Below are positions 1 through 9,805 of a stretch of 64,000 nt of DNA, one piece after another (the stretch's first letter is position 1; each line of letters starts with the position of its first letter). The translations under genes were made by a program, and so were the position numbers. The stretch lies in IMG/VR virus record IMGVR_UViG_3300046512_000168, positions 1 through 64,000 of that record, one strand, 5' to 3'. Source of the stretch: a virus. The notes below the pieces were generated by a model. The model was not told the DNA's origin. It saw only the letters and a program-made list of their open reading frames with translations, and searched no databases.

Positions 1-753
1 ATCGAGATGTGGCGCCTGCTTTCTCACTTCAAGCGCGCGATCGACGATGAGGCATGGGCCTATTCCGAAGAGCTTGGCGTCACCGTCCCGCACACCAACA
101 CCACGTTCAAGCCGGCTGGCACGACCTCGAAGCTGTTCGGCCTGACAGAAGGCGCGCACCTGCCGTCCATGCGTGAATTCCTGCGCTGGGTCCAGTTCCG
201 CAATGACGACCCGCTCGTCGACGATTACGAGGCCAAGGGCTACCCGGTCATGAAGCTGAAGAGCTACGAAGGCACGACCGTCGTCGGCTTCCCGACCAAG
301 CCGACCATCTGCGCGCTGGGCGACGGCAAGTGGGTGGTGACCGCCGCCGAGGCGACCCCGGAAGAGCAGTACGAATTCCTGCGCCTGCTGGAGAAATACT
401 GGATACACGGCGTCGACGAGGACGGCCAGCCGCTCGAACACGAGACCGGCAACCAGGTCAGCTACACGCTGAAATACAAGCCGGATGTCGTCACCTTCGA
501 AGACTTCCTCGCCACGCTGATCGACGGCCAGTTCTCCATCCGCTGCTGCTCGGTCATGCCGCAGTCTGACACCTCGGCCTACGAGTATCAGCCGGAGCAG
601 CCCGTCACCAAGGAAGAGTTCGAGAAGATCGCCGTCCAGATCGAAGCCGCCGGCAAGATGAAGGAAGACATCGACTTCTCGCACATTGATTGCGGCTCTG
701 GCTCTTGCCCGGTTGACTTCCGCGAGGACGAGGAAGAAGGCGAAAACGCATGA
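1..753 (+). CDS. nrdJ: Class II ribonucleoside triphosphate reductase, C-terminal part
   Basis: C-terminal part of an adenosylcobalamin-dependent ribonucleotide reductase of the monomeric RTPR type, which makes dNTPs from NTPs for phage DNA synthesis. The frame is open at the left edge, so the N-terminal part is missing. Family signatures visible are TTFKPAGTTSKLFG, LTEGAHLPS, GNQVSYTLKY and SVMPQSD. The extreme C-terminus has CGSGSC, the CxxxxC pair that shuttles electrons to the active site. A glutaredoxin lies just downstream with an HNH endonuclease in between, so this is a nucleotide-supply operon. A class I NrdA is less likely because of the C-terminal cysteine pair together with the PAGTTSK context. 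Confidence 0.88.
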   Translation: MEMWRLLSHFKRAIDDEAWAYSEELGVTVPHTNTTFKPAGTTSKLFGLTEGAHLPSMREFLRWVQFRNDDPLVDDYEAKGYPVMKLKSYEGTTVVGFPTKPTICALGDGKWVVTAAEATPEEQYEFLRLLEKYWIHGVDEDGQPLEHETGNQVSYTLKYKPDVVTFEDFLATLIDGQFSIRCCSVMPQSDTSAYEYQPEQPVTKEEFEKIAVQIEAAGKMKEDIDFSHIDCGSGSCPVDFREDEEEGENA

Positions 754-1310
754 ATGAAGAATGGCGGGCAGTCGTAGGCTTTGAAGGCGAGTTCGAGGTG
801 TCAAACCTCGGACGCGTCCGACGCTTATTCAGCGGTGGCGCAGATGGCTGGCGCATAATGAAGCCGTCTGCGCACGGCAGCTCCGGCCAGTATCTCGTCG
901 TTAATCTGTCAAGGGAAGGCGCTCGGGCAACCGGGCGTCGGCATCAAAAGGGTGACTACATCCCCGGCAGCAAGAAATACTGCAAGGTCCATCGCCTGGT
1001 ACTCGAAGCTTTCGTAGGTCCGTGCCCGCCGGGCATGGAGTGCCGGCACCTCGACGACCACGGCGCAAACAACCGCCTCGACAACTTGGTCTGGGGCACG
1101 AAGCGCGAAAACGCCGATGACATGATCCGAAACGGCAAGCGCAAAGGAGAGCGCAATGGGCGAGCGAAGTTAACCAACGCACAGGCGGATGAAGTCGCCA
1201 AGCGCCGCCGAAAGGGCGAAGCCCTGGCCGACTTGTCGGCTGAATTCGGTATCACAAAGACACGCGTATCCCAGTTGGCAAAGGAACCTACGATGGGGAT
1301 TGACACATGA
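750..1310 (+). CDS. HNH homing endonuclease (NUMOD4 + HNH + HTH)
   Basis: Free-standing HNH endonuclease of 186 residues. The N-terminus (about 5-30, EWRAVVGFEGEFEVSNLGRV) is a NUMOD4 motif. Residues about 76-112 hold the HNH nuclease core (VHRLVLEAFVG, CRHLDDHGANNRLDNLVWGT). The C-terminus (LTNAQADEVAKRR, then LSAEFGITKTRVSQLAK) is a helix-turn-helix for DNA binding. It overlaps the reductase stop and the glutaredoxin start by 4 bases each, so it is inserted cleanly in an otherwise continuous nucleotide-metabolism operon. Such enzymes cleave an allele lacking the insertion and spread by repair; whether this one is active cannot be seen. Confidence 0.92.
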   Translation: MNEEWRAVVGFEGEFEVSNLGRVRRLFSGGADGWRIMKPSAHGSSGQYLVVNLSREGARATGRRHQKGDYIPGSKKYCKVHRLVLEAFVGPCPPGMECRHLDDHGANNRLDNLVWGTKRENADDMIRNGKRKGERNGRAKLTNAQADEVAKRRRKGEALADLSAEFGITKTRVSQLAKEPTMGIDT

Positions 1311-1546
1311 GCCAGGCAATCGTCTACGGGCGGGTGGAACCGCCCTGCCCCTACTGCGAACGCGCCAAGGAGAAGTTGACCGAGTGCAACATCCCCTTCG
1401 AGTTCAAGGACGTGATGACGGACCTCGCCGCACGCCGCGAATTCAAGGCGCTCTTCAACGAGGGCGACAAGCAGACCGTGCCGCAGATCGTCTTAGGCGG
1501 CGTGCATATCGGGGGCTGTGACGCCCTTTTGGCGACGTTCGCCTAA
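1307..1546 (+). CDS. Glutaredoxin (CPYC)
   Basis: Small thioredoxin-fold redox protein of 79 residues with the glutaredoxin active site CPYC at about 14-17, the cis-proline segment TVPQIVLGG and the C-terminal IGGCDAL that contacts glutathione. It most likely donates electrons to the ribonucleotide reductase encoded just upstream. NrdH-redoxin is the alternative, but the CPYC site and GGCDAL favour glutaredoxin. The gene is followed at once by a strong terminator. Confidence 0.93.
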   Translation: MSQAIVYGRVEPPCPYCERAKEKLTECNIPFEFKDVMTDLAARREFKALFNEGDKQTVPQIVLGGVHIGGCDALLATFA

Positions 1547-1579: not shown

Positions 1580-1595
1580 TTGCAACGGGTTGCAC
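1580..1595. repeat. Dispersed palindrome (GG centre)
   Basis: TTGCAACGGGTTGCAC between the glutaredoxin terminator and the asparagine-synthase-like gene. Confidence 0.9.
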
Positions 1596-1643: not shown

Positions 1644-2894
1644 TTGGCGCGGTACGAGACAATGAGGGGGGCGTGGAGACCAAGCCAGCCCGTCCAGCAA
1701 GACGACTTTCATACCCGCGTCGAGATGACCGACGGCGCAGGGTCTTCGTTCATCTCACACGGTCTCGGCGCGTTTGTTCGCTCCGTCGACTTTGCCGGCC
1801 GCGCAAACAGCTTCCTCACCCTCAATGTGAGCCGCCCAGGAATGCACTCCCTGTGGTACGCAATCGACCCGATCGGCTGCGTGTACTGGGACGAGCATCG
1901 CTGGTCTTTGATGCGGCAATTGCGCGTGGATGGTGTCAACGCCAAGACGTCACGCGTCGAGGCCGGACATCTCGTCATCACTAACGGCGTGCAGACCAGA
2001 GACGTAACGATCCAGCCAGAGCATCTGCCTACAGCCAGACCGGGCCTGACGCTCGATGCGGCCATTGCCGAATTCTGGTCGATCTTCCTCGAAGCCACCC
2101 GTGAGATGTACGAGATCGCCGGCCGCCCAAGGGTGACCGCCCTCCTCTCAGCCGGCACTGACAGCACGCTCGGCACCATTGCCCTGCGCGAGATCGGCGC
2201 TGACGTGCACGCCGTCTGTGTCGGCCGCACCGAAGACGATTTCGACGCACGCTATGCCCGCAACTATGCTGCGCAGCTCGGTGTGCCCTACACCTTCCTG
2301 CCCCTGCCGGCAGATACACCGGCCCTCAATCAGCTAGCCTACGACGCCGTCGCCGCCTCAGAGTATTCTGAGATGTCGAACACACTGATGGCCATGTGCA
2401 CGACACTTGTTAGGCGCTGGGCGATCGAACAGAAGCGTCCGTGCCTTTGGAAGGGTCACTATGCTGATGACCTGCTCGGCACCAGCAACGCGACATACGG
2501 CACCTTCAAGAAGAAGTTCCCAGCGCAGACCGATCAGGAATGGTCCGAGTACCGCGCCTCGCTCTACCAGCACATCATCCCGAACGACATGCAGGTCGCC
2601 CAGGTCTGCCGGCGAGACGGCGCAATCTGGCGCTCGACGTTCACCCACCCGAAGGTCGCTGAATTCGTCTGGTCGATGCCGAAGGCCGTCGTGCCGCTGC
2701 GCCTGATCAAGCCGCTGTTTGCCGGCGCGTGCGAGCTATTCCTAGACCCGACAACCTGCTCGTGGAATGTCGACGAGAAGAAGGTCGGCTACTACACCGG
2801 CTCGGGTATCGGGAAAATTCGCCTCGAAAACCCAGTGCTCGGGGACGACAACTTTAGACGCCTCTACAAACTCGCCAAGGAACGGCTGACATGA
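1644..2894 (+). CDS. Asparagine-synthase-like PP-loop ligase without glutaminase cysteine
   Basis: Member of the asparagine synthase (AsnB) family. The synthetase domain has the PP-loop variant SAGTDST at about 169-175 (family SGGxDS), which binds and pyrophosphorolyses ATP, and GHYADDLLG at about 271, equivalent to the family GADELFGG. The N-terminal segment looks like the usual Ntn region (SLWYAIDPIGCVYW) but has no N-terminal cysteine, so it should use free ammonia or another amine rather than glutamine, as in beta-lactam synthetase or lasso cyclases. I chose the TTG because GGGAG lies seven bases upstream; ATG at 1605, 1662 or 1722 in the same frame are possible. It overlaps the SET gene by 4 bases. 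The substrate is unknown. Confidence 0.85.
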   Translation: MARYETMRGAWRPSQPVQQDDFHTRVEMTDGAGSSFISHGLGAFVRSVDFAGRANSFLTLNVSRPGMHSLWYAIDPIGCVYWDEHRWSLMRQLRVDGVNAKTSRVEAGHLVITNGVQTRDVTIQPEHLPTARPGLTLDAAIAEFWSIFLEATREMYEIAGRPRVTALLSAGTDSTLGTIALREIGADVHAVCVGRTEDDFDARYARNYAAQLGVPYTFLPLPADTPALNQLAYDAVAASEYSEMSNTLMAMCTTLVRRWAIEQKRPCLWKGHYADDLLGTSNATYGTFKKKFPAQTDQEWSEYRASLYQHIIPNDMQVAQVCRRDGAIWRSTFTHPKVAEFVWSMPKAVVPLRLIKPLFAGACELFLDPTTCSWNVDEKKVGYYTGSGIGKIRLENPVLGDDNFRRLYKLAKERLT

Positions 2895-3349
2895 GCCTCT
2901 ACCCCGCCTACATCCCGCCGCACCCGAAACACCCCTCATCCTTCGACTTCCAGGTCGTCGAATGCGGCGACATCGGAAAGGCCCTCATCACCCACCGTCC
3001 CTGGAAGCGCGGCGAGTTTATGGCCCGCTTTGACGGGGTCACCGTCGGACACGTTTACCAGCACACGCTGCAGAAGACGCCGTCGGTCCATATTCTCGAT
3101 ACGCACTTCATCGGCATGCTGGCGCATTCGTGCGATCCGAACATCATGCTCGATATGGAGCAGCAAGAGATGTACGCGCTGAAGGACATCGCCGAGGGCT
3201 CGACGCTGTCGATGGACTACGCGTCAACCGAGGATGTGCTCTTCGTCACGTTCGGCTGCGGCTGCGGGTCGATAAACTGCCGTGGCTGGATTACCGGCCG
3301 CAAGCAGGCGGCGCCGGCCGATTTCCGCTGCCTGACACCCATCGTTTGA
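2891..3349 (+). CDS. SET-domain protein (lysine methyltransferase-like)
   Basis: SET-domain protein of 152 residues. Signatures are GDIGKALITHRPWKRGEF (SET start), HSCDPN at about 79-84 (family NHSCxPN, AdoMet and substrate binding), STLSMDY (catalytic tyrosine region) and a post-SET cysteine cluster CGCGSINCRG near 123-132. Proteins of this family methylate lysine side chains; the target here is unknown. It is translationally coupled to the ligase upstream (4-base overlap) and followed by an AdoMet decarboxylase, so two consecutive genes use AdoMet. The stop codon lies inside a copy of the dispersed palindrome. Confidence 0.88.
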   Translation: MSLYPAYIPPHPKHPSSFDFQVVECGDIGKALITHRPWKRGEFMARFDGVTVGHVYQHTLQKTPSVHILDTHFIGMLAHSCDPNIMLDMEQQEMYALKDIAEGSTLSMDYASTEDVLFVTFGCGCGSINCRGWITGRKQAAPADFRCLTPIV

Positions 3350-3361
3350 AACCCGTTGCAC
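3346..3361. repeat. Dispersed palindrome (TTGAAAC arm)
   Basis: TTGAAACCCGTTGCAC; the TGA stop of the SET gene is embedded in the left arm. Confidence 0.75.
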
Positions 3362-3372
3362 CAGAGAGAACC

Positions 3373-3759
3373 ATGACTGCTCCAGAATATCGCTGCATCA
3401 CCCGCCATGGCCGCAAGGTCTACGGCCAGCACATGCTCATCAACGCCAAGGGCTGCATCCCGTCGCTGAAAGACATCCCTTACATGAAGGACTTCCTTGT
3501 CCGCCTGGCCGACGACATCGACATGGTGCGGTTCGGCGAGGCACACGTACACCGTTTCGGCTCCGGCATAGAGATCGGCCTGTCCGGCTTCCAGCTCATC
3601 GAGACCAGCCAGGTCAGTTTCCACTCGAACGACGCCGCCCGTGACATCTATCTCGACGTGTTTTCGTGCAAGGAATACGACGAGAATGCTGTCGTCGCCT
3701 TCCTGCAGAAATGGCTGGAACCCAAGACGATCGAGACGCAGGTGATCTGGCGCAGCTAA
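3373..3759 (+). CDS. speD: S-adenosylmethionine decarboxylase-like protein
   Basis: 128 residues resembling the short prokaryotic AdoMet decarboxylases that make decarboxylated AdoMet, the aminopropyl donor for spermidine. Matching elements are YGQHMLINAKGC, GIEIGLSGFQLIETSQVSFHS and YLDVFSCKEYD. Ser79 in ETSQVSFH corresponds to the serine that becomes the pyruvoyl group on self-cleavage, His84 to the processing histidine and Cys99 to the proton donor. The usual ESH at the cleavage site is TSQ here, which could affect processing. It follows the ligase and SET genes within 25 bases. Start chosen at the first ATG after the palindrome, with a weak AGAGAG ribosome site. Confidence 0.8.
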   Translation: MTAPEYRCITRHGRKVYGQHMLINAKGCIPSLKDIPYMKDFLVRLADDIDMVRFGEAHVHRFGSGIEIGLSGFQLIETSQVSFHSNDAARDIYLDVFSCKEYDENAVVAFLQKWLEPKTIETQVIWRS

Positions 3760-3765
3760 ATTTAG

Positions 3766-3794
3766 TTGACGAACACTTTGACATGTGGTAGTGT
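3766..3794 (+). promoter_or_regulatory. Early-type promoter
   Basis: -35 TTGACG, 17-bp spacer AACACTTTGACATGTGG, -10 TAGTGT; drives the GTG-start gene at 3822. Confidence 0.8.
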
Positions 3795-3821
3795 GTAACT
3801 ATAAATCAAACGGGGCTTATA

Positions 3822-4913
3822 GTGACACGCTACCAGGACATTCGCCTATCCCGGCATTTCACCCTGCTGGACTTCATGCAGGACCGTGATCTCTACATGA
3901 GCGGGCAACCGATCCCGCTCTCCGAGACAATCAACGAGGACCATATCTATCTCGGCAAGCGCCTCTGCGAGGAGCTGCTGGAGCCGATGATCAAGATTGG
4001 CGGCCCCTGCTCGATGGCGGCCGGATGGTGCCCCTCCAACGCAGGCCATGCGCCAACCACGCCGCACATCTGGGGCGCTAAGGGCGTGGCTTGCGACGCG
4101 GCTTTCCACGACTGGGTCAACCAGGACCGCTCGCCGATCAAGATGCTGGAAGAGGTGATCAAGGCCGGCATCCCCTTCGAGCGGCTTATTACCTATGCCG
4201 GCTCCGAGTACATGTGCATCGCGTGGAAAGAGCGCCCGCGCTACGCCCTCTACGAGAACATGCGCATTCCAGGCCAGGTCAAGCCGGCCTACATGCAGCA
4301 CACCCGCACCATGGGCCGCCCCGATAGCCTGCCGCAGACCCTGATGCACCGAGCCGACTGGAGACGCGGCCCCAACGAAACGATCTACCACACGCGCAGA
4401 TCGCTCCGGCCGCAGCATGTGCGCCTGTCTCGCTACTTCACCCTCCTGGACTTCTGCCGAAGCGAGATCGGCATGGAGATCGGCGAGTGCTGGGTGCTGC
4501 CGATCGAGGCCGCCAAGCAGGCCTATTACGGCCGGATGTTCGGGGAGATCATTGACCCTGTCGTGGCCGAGATGGGCCGCGTGTCTGTCACCCAAGGCGT
4601 CGTCCCTCCAGGTCTCGCAAGGCGCATGGGCAAGGATGCGGAACTGTTCACCTGGACCAAAGGGCCTGCCCAGGTGCGCTTCCTCCTGCCGCTAGGTGCG
4701 GACTGGGAGCGCGCGCTCGATATCATTTCGCAGCACGACAACCTGCTTGGCGTCGACGCAACCGATCACCCGTCAGGCGCGGCGGAGATCACCGTCACCA
4801 TAAACCCGTTCCAGGTCCGCACTATCTACTCCGGCGGCTACCCGTTCGGTTACTACGACGGCGAGGTGCCGGACTACATCCCAGCAAGGGCGCGCGCCAA
4901 GCTCGGCATATAA
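3822..4913 (+). CDS. Duplicated peptidase M15-like protein
   Basis: 363 residues made of two related halves. Each opens with the phrase LSR(H/Y)FTLLDF, typical of M15A D-Ala-D-Ala carboxypeptidase-like proteins. The first half (about 8-115) also has GKRLCEELLEPMIKIGGP and HIWGAKGVACDAAFHDW, similar to the family metal-binding HxxGxAxD region although spaced unusually. The second half (about 200-300) keeps the fold phrases (EIIDPVVAEMG) but lacks a clear His/Asp set. M15 enzymes cut peptidoglycan cross-links; here the degenerate second half suggests a binding or structural role. The GTG start follows an early-type promoter, which argues against a simple late lysis enzyme. Confidence 0.7.
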   Translation: MTRYQDIRLSRHFTLLDFMQDRDLYMSGQPIPLSETINEDHIYLGKRLCEELLEPMIKIGGPCSMAAGWCPSNAGHAPTTPHIWGAKGVACDAAFHDWVNQDRSPIKMLEEVIKAGIPFERLITYAGSEYMCIAWKERPRYALYENMRIPGQVKPAYMQHTRTMGRPDSLPQTLMHRADWRRGPNETIYHTRRSLRPQHVRLSRYFTLLDFCRSEIGMEIGECWVLPIEAAKQAYYGRMFGEIIDPVVAEMGRVSVTQGVVPPGLARRMGKDAELFTWTKGPAQVRFLLPLGADWERALDIISQHDNLLGVDATDHPSGAAEITVTINPFQVRTIYSGGYPFGYYDGEVPDYIPARARAKLGI

Positions 4914-4915
4914 AA

Positions 4916-4931
4916 TTGCAACGCGTTGCAT
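4916..4931. repeat. Dispersed palindrome (GC centre)
   Basis: TTGCAACGCGTTGCAT, two bases after a stop and 23 bp upstream of a -35 box. Confidence 0.95.
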
Positions 4932-6626: not shown

Positions 6627-7436
6627 ATGTCCGCGCCGTCCAATCAGTACAAGGTTGACATGCTCGCACTGGATGAGATCATCCCTTACGAGAACAACCC
6701 ACGGAACAACGAGCCGGCCGTCGACGCGGTGATCGCCTCGATCGTGTCGTTCGGCTTTCGCGTCCCGCTGCTCGTCGATCGCAACAATGTCCTGGTCGCT
6801 GGCCATACCCGGCTCGAAGCGGTCAAGCGCATCATCCAGCGCGACCCGACGCGTGCGGCCGATCTCGGCCAGCTCCCCTGCTTCCGCGCTGACGATCTGA
6901 CAGAGGATCAGGTCCGCGCCTTCCGCCTCGTCGACAACAAGACCTCCGAGCTGGCCGAATGGAACTTCGACATGCTCGCGACCGAAGTCGAGCTGCTGAC
7001 CGAGGCCGGCATCAACCTCACCGAATTCGGCTGGGCGCAGGAAGAAATCGACTGCCTGAAGTCTGTTGTCGCCGAAGACTGCCTGGACCCGTCGACGTGG
7101 GAACGTCCGGCCGAGGAGGCAGACGGCGTCAATGGTGCGATGACCGCAGCCCGCTCCCTGTCTCACTCGGCCGACGGCTCGTCCGTCCGCGTCACCATCG
7201 GCACGTTCGGCTTCATGATCCTGCGCGACGACTATGAGAAGTGGGCAGAGGCTGTCATGGCCGAAAACTCCTTCGACTTCGAGCGCGTCAACGATGAGGC
7301 GGCCCGCCGCCTTGGTCTGCTCGAAGCCAAGCAGGCTCGCACGAATTTCTTGAGCAGCGTCTACTCGACGAACGCCGCCGCGCCGGTGACTGTCGCCGAG
7401 CAGAAGGACGAAGAGACGGCAAACCTGGAGGCCTAA
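6627..7436 (+). CDS. ParB-like domain protein
   Basis: 269 residues with a ParB/sulfiredoxin-fold domain at about 10-110. Signatures are IIPYENNPRNNEPAVDAVIASIVSFGFRVP, VLVAGHTRLEAVKR (about 57-68, the GxxRxxA box that binds CTP in true ParB proteins) and LTEDQVRAFRLVDNK. No obvious DNA-binding HTH follows; the C-terminal part (FGFMILRDDYEKWAEAVM) is of unknown fold. Phages often place such a protein near the terminases, sometimes with methyltransferases. The start is the ATG after CGAGGAAATCCCG; an in-frame ATG 108 bases upstream overlaps the palindrome and is less likely. Confidence 0.88.
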   Translation: MSAPSNQYKVDMLALDEIIPYENNPRNNEPAVDAVIASIVSFGFRVPLLVDRNNVLVAGHTRLEAVKRIIQRDPTRAADLGQLPCFRADDLTEDQVRAFRLVDNKTSELAEWNFDMLATEVELLTEAGINLTEFGWAQEEIDCLKSVVAEDCLDPSTWERPAEEADGVNGAMTAARSLSHSADGSSVRVTIGTFGFMILRDDYEKWAEAVMAENSFDFERVNDEAARRLGLLEAKQARTNFLSSVYSTNAAAPVTVAEQKDEETANLEA

Positions 7437-7443
7437 GCCGACC

Positions 7444-9054
7444 ATGAACAAAATAGACCTTGTGGCACTTAGCCAACTGGAGCCAGCGGTCTACAACCCC
7501 CGAGAGACGGACCCCTTCCGTCTCCGGCTCCTCCAGCTCTCCCTGACCAAGCTCGGTTTCATCCTGCCGCTCTACGCGACGCCGAACGGCCATCTGCTGT
7601 CCGGCCATCAGCGTCTGCTCTGCGCCGAGCTGCTGCAGTCCAACCACGCGCCGATCGTCTACGTGGACACCAAGATCGAAGCCTCGCGCAATATCAACCT
7701 GGTCTTCAATCGCGCCACCAACGACATGAAGACGAGCGACACGTCCGATCGGCTATTGGCGTCGATGAACCTCGACAAGGTGACGGAGCTGGCCGCCTCG
7801 ATCTCCGACAAGAAGGTCAACACGCCGGAATTCTACCGCTGCATGTCGGCCGAGCTGCAGCCGATCGACGACCTCTTGAAGATGGATAAGGCCGGCTACG
7901 AGAGCCCGGCTGTCTCGATGGCCGCAAAGCTGTTTCGCTGGAATTTGTTCATGCCGCTTGTCGTCACCGACACTGGCCGCATCATCAACGGTTCGTTCCG
8001 CCTCTACGCCGCAGCCGACCGCCAGTCTAACTGGGAGTTCGAAAAGCACATTCCGAAGGGCATGTACCCGGTCGTGACCATTCCAGACGCCGAGGGCGAT
8101 CTCGCCGTTACCCTCCTGAACATGATCTCGATGCGCTTCACGCTGGAAAAGCAGTACGCCGACCAGCTCCGCTTCGGTGCCTTCCGCCGACCGACCAACA
8201 TCGTCAAGGACATCCTGCCGCCTCTGCGCGTCTGGGTAGACGGCCGGCCGAAAGCAGCGCACGAAAGCCTGAAGGACCCGGAGAAGTTCTGGCACGGTTT
8301 CCGCAAGGAGCACGGCGAAAATCTCCTCGACTTCGGCGCCGGTCAACGCCGGCAGGAAGACATCCTCGCCAAGAAGGGCATCGACTGCCTGTCCTGGGAG
8401 CCTTACCCCTGCCCGCAGGAAAAGGACCCCGAGCGCCTGGACGAGAGCACACCCAACGGAGAGCCGAGCCTCACACTGGTTCGCCGTCTGACGGACAAGT
8501 TCCTGGACGAGATCGCTGCGGGCCGTTCGTTCTCGGCGATCACGCTCGCCGCCGTGCTCAACTCTGTGCCGTTCGAGATCGACCGCCGTTACGTGCTGCT
8601 GATCACATCGGCGCTCTGCTCCTACGGCACCCGTCTTGTCGGCTCGGTGCGCCATGTGCGCTCGCAAGACAGCGTTCACATTGCGAGGACACGTGTGTCC
8701 AGCGACGGCAAGGCACACATGGCGATGTCCATGTTCCCGCTAGACTATGAGCCAAACCTGACGCTTGGCGACATCTCGGTCATGCCGAAGGTGCAGCGCT
8801 TCCACACACCGGAAGAAATCGACGCACTGCTGAAGCTGTTCTTCATGAAGACAGAGATCATTGACGGCGGCCAATACATCTTCTTCCGCTGCACAGCGCC
8901 GCGTCGGCCGAAGCCGGAGCTGCTGAAGAAAGCGCTGCTGCACGAATTCAATCTGCCGTACCGCGATGGCGAGACGATCAACAGGGGCAAGGAAGCATTG
9001 CAGGCGTTCGGGCAGCGCCTCAGTATCAATTTCGATGAGGTCCCCGATGTCTGA
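7444..9054 (+). CDS. Tandem ParB-like / methyltransferase-like fusion
   Basis: 536 residues. The N-terminus repeats the ParB-like fold (LSQLEPAVYNPRETDPF, LLSGHQRLLCAELL at about 53-66). A second ParB-like half follows (FMPLVVTDTGRIINGSFRLYAAA, about 168-190), where NGSFR replaces GHxR. From about 285 there is a Rossmann methyltransferase-like segment with NLLDFGAGQRRQEDILAKKG, then a putative adenine-contacting WEPYPCP. The domain combination is unusual. It lies between another ParB-like gene and a second methyltransferase and leads into the terminase genes, so a role in marking or handling genomic DNA is plausible but unproven. Confidence 0.75.
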   Translation: MNKIDLVALSQLEPAVYNPRETDPFRLRLLQLSLTKLGFILPLYATPNGHLLSGHQRLLCAELLQSNHAPIVYVDTKIEASRNINLVFNRATNDMKTSDTSDRLLASMNLDKVTELAASISDKKVNTPEFYRCMSAELQPIDDLLKMDKAGYESPAVSMAAKLFRWNLFMPLVVTDTGRIINGSFRLYAAADRQSNWEFEKHIPKGMYPVVTIPDAEGDLAVTLLNMISMRFTLEKQYADQLRFGAFRRPTNIVKDILPPLRVWVDGRPKAAHESLKDPEKFWHGFRKEHGENLLDFGAGQRRQEDILAKKGIDCLSWEPYPCPQEKDPERLDESTPNGEPSLTLVRRLTDKFLDEIAAGRSFSAITLAAVLNSVPFEIDRRYVLLITSALCSYGTRLVGSVRHVRSQDSVHIARTRVSSDGKAHMAMSMFPLDYEPNLTLGDISVMPKVQRFHTPEEIDALLKLFFMKTEIIDGGQYIFFRCTAPRRPKPELLKKALLHEFNLPYRDGETINRGKEALQAFGQRLSINFDEVPDV

Positions 9055-9805
9055 TCTGGCGAACGTCCAGCCCGCACCGTCACTGCAACCCGTTGCAACG
9101 CCACGCCACTTCCCAGCCGACCCGAACCGTTTTGTCTTCGACGCGTCTGTCGCGGCGATCTTCGACAACATGGCGCTGCGCTCTATCCCCGGCTACGGTG
9201 GATACTTCGAGCGCGTCAGTGAGATCGTTTCGCGCAAGCGCCTGCCGAAATACAGCCAGGTCTGGGATATGGGCGTGTCGACGGGTGCCGGCCTCGACGC
9301 CGTCAAGCGCGCCACCTTCCATCCGTTCGTCGAGTATTTCGGTATCGACATCTCCGAGCCGATGCTCGCCAAGGCCTCCGAGCGTTGCCCCTACGCCACG
9401 ATGCAGGTGCACGATCTGGAGAAGGGGCTGCCCGACGTCGAGATCGGGAATGTGTCCGTGTTCCTCTGGAGCTGGACGCTGCAGTTCCTGCCGTCCAAGG
9501 AGCTGCGCCGCGAGCTGCTGCTCAAGTCGGCCGAGGCCCTGCATCCGGAAGGCTGCATCTTCATCGGCGAGAAGTTCGTCAACTCAGACCCTGTCCTGCA
9601 GGAGGTGCTGGAAGACGGCTACTACAAGTTCCGTCTGGAAAACGGCTACACGATCGCCGAGATCAAGGCCAAGTCGAAGGCGCTCGAAGGCTCCATGTGG
9701 CCTTGGACGCACGAGGAGTTGCTGGAAACCGCCGAGACTGCCGGCCTGCGTGCTCGCCCGCTCTACCGTCATTTCAACTTTGGGGGCTACGTCCTTAGCC
9801 GCTGA
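9047..9805 (+). CDS. AdoMet-dependent methyltransferase (class I)
   Basis: 252-residue class I methyltransferase. Motif I is VWDMGVSTGAGL at about 73-84, motif II EYFGIDISEPMLAKA, motif III VSVFLWSWTLQFLP. The arrangement resembles CmoA-like and small-molecule methyltransferases more than DNA enzymes, and no DPPY-type motif is present. The start overlaps the preceding gene by 8 bases and has GAGG upstream. The unstructured N-terminus contains SLQPVATP, encoded by one of the dispersed palindromes. Substrate unknown. Confidence 0.85.
   Translation: MSDLANVQPAPSLQPVATPRHFPADPNRFVFDASVAAIFDNMALRSIPGYGGYFERVSEIVSRKRLPKYSQVWDMGVSTGAGLDAVKRATFHPFVEYFGIDISEPMLAKASERCPYATMQVHDLEKGLPDVEIGNVSVFLWSWTLQFLPSKELRRELLLKSAEALHPEGCIFIGEKFVNSDPVLQEVLEDGYYKFRLENGYTIAEIKAKSKALEGSMWPWTHEELLETAETAGLRARPLYRHFNFGGYVLSR
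9083..9098. repeat. Dispersed palindrome (CC centre), coding
   Basis: CTGCAACCCGTTGCAA inside the methyltransferase gene, encoding LQPVA. Confidence 0.9.

Follow-up and report, generated by a model that had tools for sequence, protein, structure and literature searches.

The locus and its genes

The stretch of DNA analyzed here, referred to as the window, comprises the first 64 kb (64,000 bases) of the 82,193-base virus record IMGVR_UViG_3300046512_000168, a fragment whose 5' end falls inside a ribonucleotide reductase gene. Three successive open reading frames on the plus strand (positions 1644–3759) encode an AsnB/CmoY-type ligase, a SET-domain protein and a SpeD-like protein (Table 1). All three exceed the curated cut-offs of their Pfam families (Asn_synthase, 2e-5; SET, 4e-5; AdoMet_dc, 2e-17), and the similarities are thus more than chance. 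The original prediction of three genes running together is borne out in this respect; of its three family readings, that of the ligase stands, and those of the SET and AdoMet decarboxylase-like proteins are corrected below. The ligase and SET genes overlap in an ATGA, which suggests co-translation, and 23 bases separate the SET gene from the SpeD-like gene. The ligase may start at TTG 1644, behind a GGGAG, or at ATG 1662, and homology begins near 1674. Upstream, a homing-type endonuclease gene of the NUMOD4-HNH type is found between the ribonucleotide reductase and glutaredoxin genes; none lies between the reductase and the ligase in a 96-kb relative (L104).

Table 1. Features of the window around the ligase, SET and SpeD-like genes and the CmoA module.
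Feature	Positions	Strand	Basis or remark
NUMOD4-HNH endonuclease, unrelated mobile gene	750..1310	+	Pfam HNH_3 and NUMOD4
Glutaredoxin, probably tied to ribonucleotide reductase	1307..1546	+	Pfam 1.5e-15
Palindrome TGCAACGGGTTGCA upstream of the ligase	1581..1594	.	Variant 3347-3360 over the SET stop codon; copy 4917-4930
AsnB/CmoY-type amide ligase	1644..2894	+	PP-loop motif LLSAGTDS; glutaminase domain at the N terminus degenerate
BurB-type SET protein, predicted methionine S-methyltransferase	2891..3349	+	BurB 9l4t E 2.8e-33
SpeD-like pyruvoyl decarboxylase	3373..3759	+	Pfam AdoMet_dc 2e-17
Promoter-like repeat TTGACGAACACTTTGACAT ahead of the M15-like gene	3766..3795	+	Repeat count
M15-like protein, usual ligase neighbor	3822..4913	+	Invariant H82, G88, D92
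ParB-like protein	6627..7436	+	phrog_620 9e-44
ParB-methyltransferase fusion (PHROG 5475), candidate DNA carboxymethyltransferase	7444..9054	+	phrog_5475 4e-79
CmoA homologue, carboxy-SAM synthase	9047..9805	+	PDB CmoA/YecO 7.6e-29

The three genes had been placed between a terminator and an early promoter. The terminator (1553–1570) is weak, and the scan calls it on the minus strand only. The promoter coincides with a real repeated element, a TTGACRAACACT-type promoter-like repeat with 17 copies in the window (3766, 4939, 13428, 18231 and 13 more; 0.02 expected for the longer motif), even though a sigma-70 scan does not call the copy at 3766. This repeat at times follows a palindrome by 20–40 bases and is absent from the L104 stretch. 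The palindrome TGCAACNNGTTGCA occurs 33 times in the window (e.g., at 1581, 3347, 4917, 6520, 9084, and 17578), 17 times in 21.6 kb of L104 and 4 times in the stretch of Aeromonas phage HJ05; allowing up to three mismatches, 111 matches were counted against 12.6 expected. The set resembles operators or stoperators spread throughout the phage.

The ligase and its conserved neighborhood

In Synechococcus phage S-B43, CmoA forms carboxy-SAM, CmoX carboxymethylates cytosine, and the AsnB-like ligase CmoY joins glycine to the resulting 5-carboxymethylcytosine; further ligase clusters with unspecified amines were predicted in the same 2025 study (PMC12783734). The ligase of the window is CmoY-like, if only remotely similar, and nearer to CmoY than to AsnB in profile comparison (hhalign, 96.6%, E 5.7e-10 against CmoY; 91.7%, 7.6e-7 against AsnB), a gap that is indicative only because the two profiles are of unequal depth. 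The structure model of the ligase is partial (pLDDT 57), and its top Foldseek matches are AsnB and beta-lactam synthetase, with which it shares the PP-loop synthetase fold. Unlike in these two enzymes, its glutaminase half is truncated and the catalytic residues are missing. As originally noted, the glutaminase cysteine is lacking: in the alignment with E. coli AsnB the Ntn domain is represented by its terminal portion alone, in which neither Cys1 nor the NGE motif is present, and the shortened N-terminal domain has none of the glutaminase residues that mark a glutamine-dependent asparagine synthetase.

A full-length homologue of the ligase is encoded by HJ05 (44.5% identity by tblastn, 47% in the alignment), and L104 also encodes a homologue. 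In initial scans of IMG/VR neither the ligase nor the SET or M15-like protein gave a match; a degenerate DNA motif search (KKVG[YF]YTG) recovered three IMG/VR contigs with the ligase. The product of gene gp050 of Samunavirus SM1, examined as a hidden ligase, is not one. In HJ05, L104 and three further genomes (G001, G002, and G003) the ligase co-occurs with CmoA and a ParB-methyltransferase fusion protein, and the genomes that carry the ligase share a ParB gene, this fusion (PHROG 5475) and a class I methyltransferase, which is the CmoA homologue. An M15-like gene is present in most of them, adjoining the ligase in HJ05 and L104 and preceding it in L067; in SM1, such a gene lies elsewhere in the genome. 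In L067 the M15-like protein next to the ligase is fused to a SWIM zinc finger (L067:12346-13227). The M15 label is our reading of a motif in a protein that has no Pfam or PDB match.

The order of genes in L104 is ribonucleotide reductase, ligase, M15-like, ParB, fusion and CmoA, the same as in the window except that the SET and SpeD genes are missing, and in HJ05 the ligase is likewise followed by the M15-like gene. In the window, the SET and SpeD genes sit exactly between the two. As the ligase and M15-like genes of L104 are adjacent without them, the SET and SpeD genes look like an insertion beside the ligase, an add-on to an established set. The three-gene combination was found nowhere else, and what recurs in a conserved setting is the ligase without SET or SpeD. 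The pair is present in no other examined record of the module, so comparison lends no support to its link with the ligase. The SpeD of S-B43 is canonical, and its gene is distant from that of the ligase.

The ParB-methyltransferase fusion and CmoA

The CmoA homologue is assigned by homology (TIGR00740, 2e-37, under the equivalog cut-off). It lacks Arg199, as does the active S-B43 enzyme, and this residue was dropped as a criterion for CmoA since the assayed S-B43 enzyme is also without it. Across phage CmoAs (L091 and the phage set), Arg199 of the E. coli enzyme is not conserved, and Lys198 is found in 80 of 80 rows. HJ05 also encodes a DAHP synthase (L005:6257-7420; PF00793, 1e-49), which could raise prephenate for CmoA.

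A total of 80 viral loci carrying the fusion protein were compared (L102–L181). In 77 of them CmoA lies just downstream in the same orientation, in 78 ParB lies upstream, and all 15 fusion clusters at 60% identity have CmoA; the loci were selected by the fusion protein and not by CmoA, so that the association is not built in. Among 40 relatives of the fusion, ParB_N was detected in 34 and Methyltransf_23 in 11, and the AlphaFold model of the protein is poor. CmoX (PF00145), a methyltransferase marked by SPPC and the carboxy-SAM arginine, is absent from the fragmentary 82-kb record and from HJ05, SM1 and Evaa, and a CmoX-like gene appears as a weak match at one of the 80 fusion loci. Because CmoX is missing here, the fusion protein becomes the candidate transferase, and it is likely the carboxymethyltransferase of the module as judged from its sequence and genomic company. 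The fusion protein is not known to have been assayed.

The locus thus resembles the S-B43 system in having a CmoA homologue and an AsnB-like ligase with no predicted glutaminase activity, and ParB genes, present here, are also found near many CmoX genes. It differs in having no C5-methyltransferase CmoX, in that the neighbor of CmoA is the ParB-methyltransferase fusion, in the long N-terminal domain retained by the ligase, and in the added SET and SpeD genes. Within the DNA examined, an AsnB-like ligase lies near the ParB, fusion and CmoA trio at one of the 80 loci. Given that the trio mostly occurs with no ligase nearby, carboxymethylation may in many cases be the only step, or other enzymes may complete the mark.

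The SET protein

The SET protein had been read as a lysine-type methyltransferase, and this is not supported. Among solved structures it is far closer to BurB (9l4t, E 2.8e-33) than to the top histone methyltransferase, ASH1L (2.3e-5). BurB converts free methionine by methylation to S-methylmethionine and thereby opens the methylation route to DMSP (PMC12542666; PMC7496086). The phage protein belongs to the BurB-type family by sequence, the MDYASTE motif and the post-SET cysteines. With the BurB/MSMT enzymes it shares the SET fold, 46% identity to BurB, the motif MDYASTED, an equivalent of Tyr124 and a neighboring decarboxylase gene (PMC12542666, PMC7496086); it is unlike them in that this decarboxylase is of the SpeD fold and not of the PLP type, and in that no aminotransferase or dehydrogenase adjoins it.

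A genome scan identified 48 bacterial relatives with up to 53% identity, and MDYASTE is conserved in 16 of 16 aligned rows, the phage protein included. A PLP-dependent decarboxylase adjoins the SET gene at 19 of the 48 bacterial loci, seven of which also have an aminotransferase, the make-up of the DMSP route from methionine via S-methylmethionine to the amine (PMC12542666, PMC7496086). In Desulfatibacillum and Thiorhodococcus genes for a decarboxylase, an aminotransferase and an aldehyde dehydrogenase are lined up with the SET gene. None of the tested DMSP genes was found at 26 of the 48 loci. BurB-type SET genes of Pseudomonas and Pandoraea (L029–L056) have no adjoining PLP decarboxylase of the L010 type, and in view of the Pseudomonas relatives the SET family may be mixed. 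The idea that BurI is SpeD-like was abandoned: none of the 48 bacterial relatives has a SpeD gene next to its SET gene, and the neighboring decarboxylase in 19 is PLP-type. In the tree, the phage SET protein forms a long, unplaced branch whose nearest rows by path are among the decarboxylase-linked ones. Pfam scans covering part of the record revealed no aminotransferase or aldehyde dehydrogenase by which DMSP would be reached. Another phage BurB-type SET protein (L059:7947-8423; 34%) has an altered motif, NYNHTE, and lies beside sugar-nucleotide and aminotransferase genes; it was set aside as a comparison case on account of this changed motif and neighborhood.

The SpeD-like protein

Production of decarboxylated AdoMet, as first proposed for the third gene, is now one of several possible activities. 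The protein scores 40.9 bits against TIGR03330, below the equivalog cut-off of 75.65 for class 1b AdoMet decarboxylases, and retains the pyruvoyl Ser, the processing His and the catalytic Cys but has lost the HTWPE motif. It falls in a non-canonical phage clade (support 96/93) with phiM12 and pelagiphage HTVC115P. Assayed phage SpeD homologues of the non-canonical type are arginine or ornithine decarboxylases, and that of Sinorhizobium phage phiN3 is a true AdoMet decarboxylase (PMC9992855). The protein resembles the SpeD-derived ornithine and arginine decarboxylases of phages in its broad clade, the retained Ser, His and Cys and the loss of HTWPE (PMC9992855, PMC10407285), and is unlike them in adjoining a homologue of a methionine S-methyltransferase. 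Spermidine synthase, the partner of an AdoMet decarboxylase, was not found in the incomplete 82-kb record, in agreement with its absence as first noted. Many phages carry SpeD genes singly. In Microcystis phage MaAM05 (L186), two tandem SpeD genes occur with speE, and the first of the two, similar to the non-canonical type, may encode an ornithine decarboxylase that makes up a full route to spermidine.

S-methylmethionine corresponds to AdoMet with a methyl group replacing the adenosyl group, and its cation is located near that of ornithine. Owing to this likeness to both compounds it would be a plausible substrate of the SpeD-like protein, although we know of no SpeD protein that acts on it. 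S-methylmethionine is the preferred candidate substrate, with AdoMet, ornithine and arginine possible.

A proposed pathway and its alternatives

The best explanation of the locus, a tentative one that we place a little short of even chance, is that the ligase amidates carboxymethylated DNA with an amine made by the SET and SpeD-like proteins, most likely 3-(dimethylsulfonio)propylamine. The sequences establish the gene families, their order and the conserved neighborhoods; from these we infer the substrates and products in this phage, the function of the fusion protein and the choice of DNA as target. In the resulting pathway, CmoA would form carboxy-SAM, and a DNA carboxymethyltransferase, probably the ParB-methyltransferase fusion, would attach a carboxymethyl group to a base. 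The ligase would adenylate the carboxyl group of this base and then couple the amine. For the latter, methionine would be methylated by the SET protein to S-methylmethionine, which the SpeD-like enzyme would decarboxylate to 3-(dimethylsulfonio)propylamine; the amidated base would bear a fixed positive charge. That the ligase acts in DNA amidation is probable. Whether SET and SpeD supply the amine is close to evenly balanced, and the identity of the amine as 3-(dimethylsulfonio)propylamine is a possibility that we hold with considerable doubt. The original suggestion of a pathway attaching amines to peptides or nucleic acids pointed in the right direction, as the phage has, besides a CmoY-like ligase, CmoA and the genes that accompany it in a module for DNA carboxymethylation (PMC12783734).

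The nature of the amine is where the strongest alternative parts from this reading. The same DNA amidation could use putrescine, agmatine or decarboxylated AdoMet supplied by SpeD, with the SET protein otherwise employed, for instance in methylation of the group once attached or of the substrate of the ligase. An amine-bearing base has a precedent in phage phiW-14, which carries putrescine on thymine. The place of SpeD in the clade with phiM12 and HTVC115P agrees with such an amine, as do the ornithine, arginine and AdoMet decarboxylase activities of its assayed relatives (PMC9992855). This alternative leaves the BurB-type SET protein without a clear task, however; BurB acts specifically on methionine in its free form (PMC12542666). 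We regard the alternative as unlikely, if still to be reckoned with.

The SET and SpeD genes could also be an independent auxiliary metabolic pair, providing the host with a sulfonium compound or polyamine and merely standing beside the ligase. Single SpeD genes in many phages and the want of a second linkage to a ligase would fit this, but the overlap between the ligase and SET genes in an ATGA and the insertion of the pair exactly between genes that are adjacent in relatives argue against it, as does the lack of the later DMSP enzymes in the scanned part of the record; we consider it improbable. A still smaller chance is given to an ammonia- or glycine-using CmoY and hence a plain amide or glycyl mark as in S-B43, whose CmoY takes glycine, a large cluster being predicted to use ammonia (PMC12783734): the ligases of HJ05, L104 and G001–G003 were found with no SET or SpeD, but here the pair would go unexplained and the glutaminase active site for ammonia is missing. 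Finally, bacterial CmoA acts on tRNA and the PHROGs label of the CmoA family is "tRNA methyltransferase," but a role in tRNA wobble modification, with the ligase acting on a protein or small molecule, is very improbable, as no CmoB was recognized in the neighborhood and CmoA is tied to a ParB-domain protein in 77 of 80 loci.

Significance

The preferred reading, amidation of carboxymethylated DNA with an amine from SET and SpeD, touches two points of the 2025 study, in which the amines of other phage ligases were left open and no carboxymethyltransferase besides CmoX was found (PMC12783734). The locus offers a candidate amine, encoded beside its ligase, and the neighborhood seen across the 80 loci singles out PHROG 5475, a widespread family, as a candidate for further carboxymethyltransferases, distinct from CmoX. 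The full proposal, a sulfonium base arising via a SpeD-fold S-methylmethionine decarboxylase together with a second, ParB-fused DNA carboxymethyltransferase family, is speculative and unlikely to hold in every part. If true, DNA bearing a permanently charged sulfonium would contain a base of a new kind, and decarboxylation of S-methylmethionine by a SpeD protein would be a new activity; the group with which the phage may cap its DNA would be one not previously encountered.
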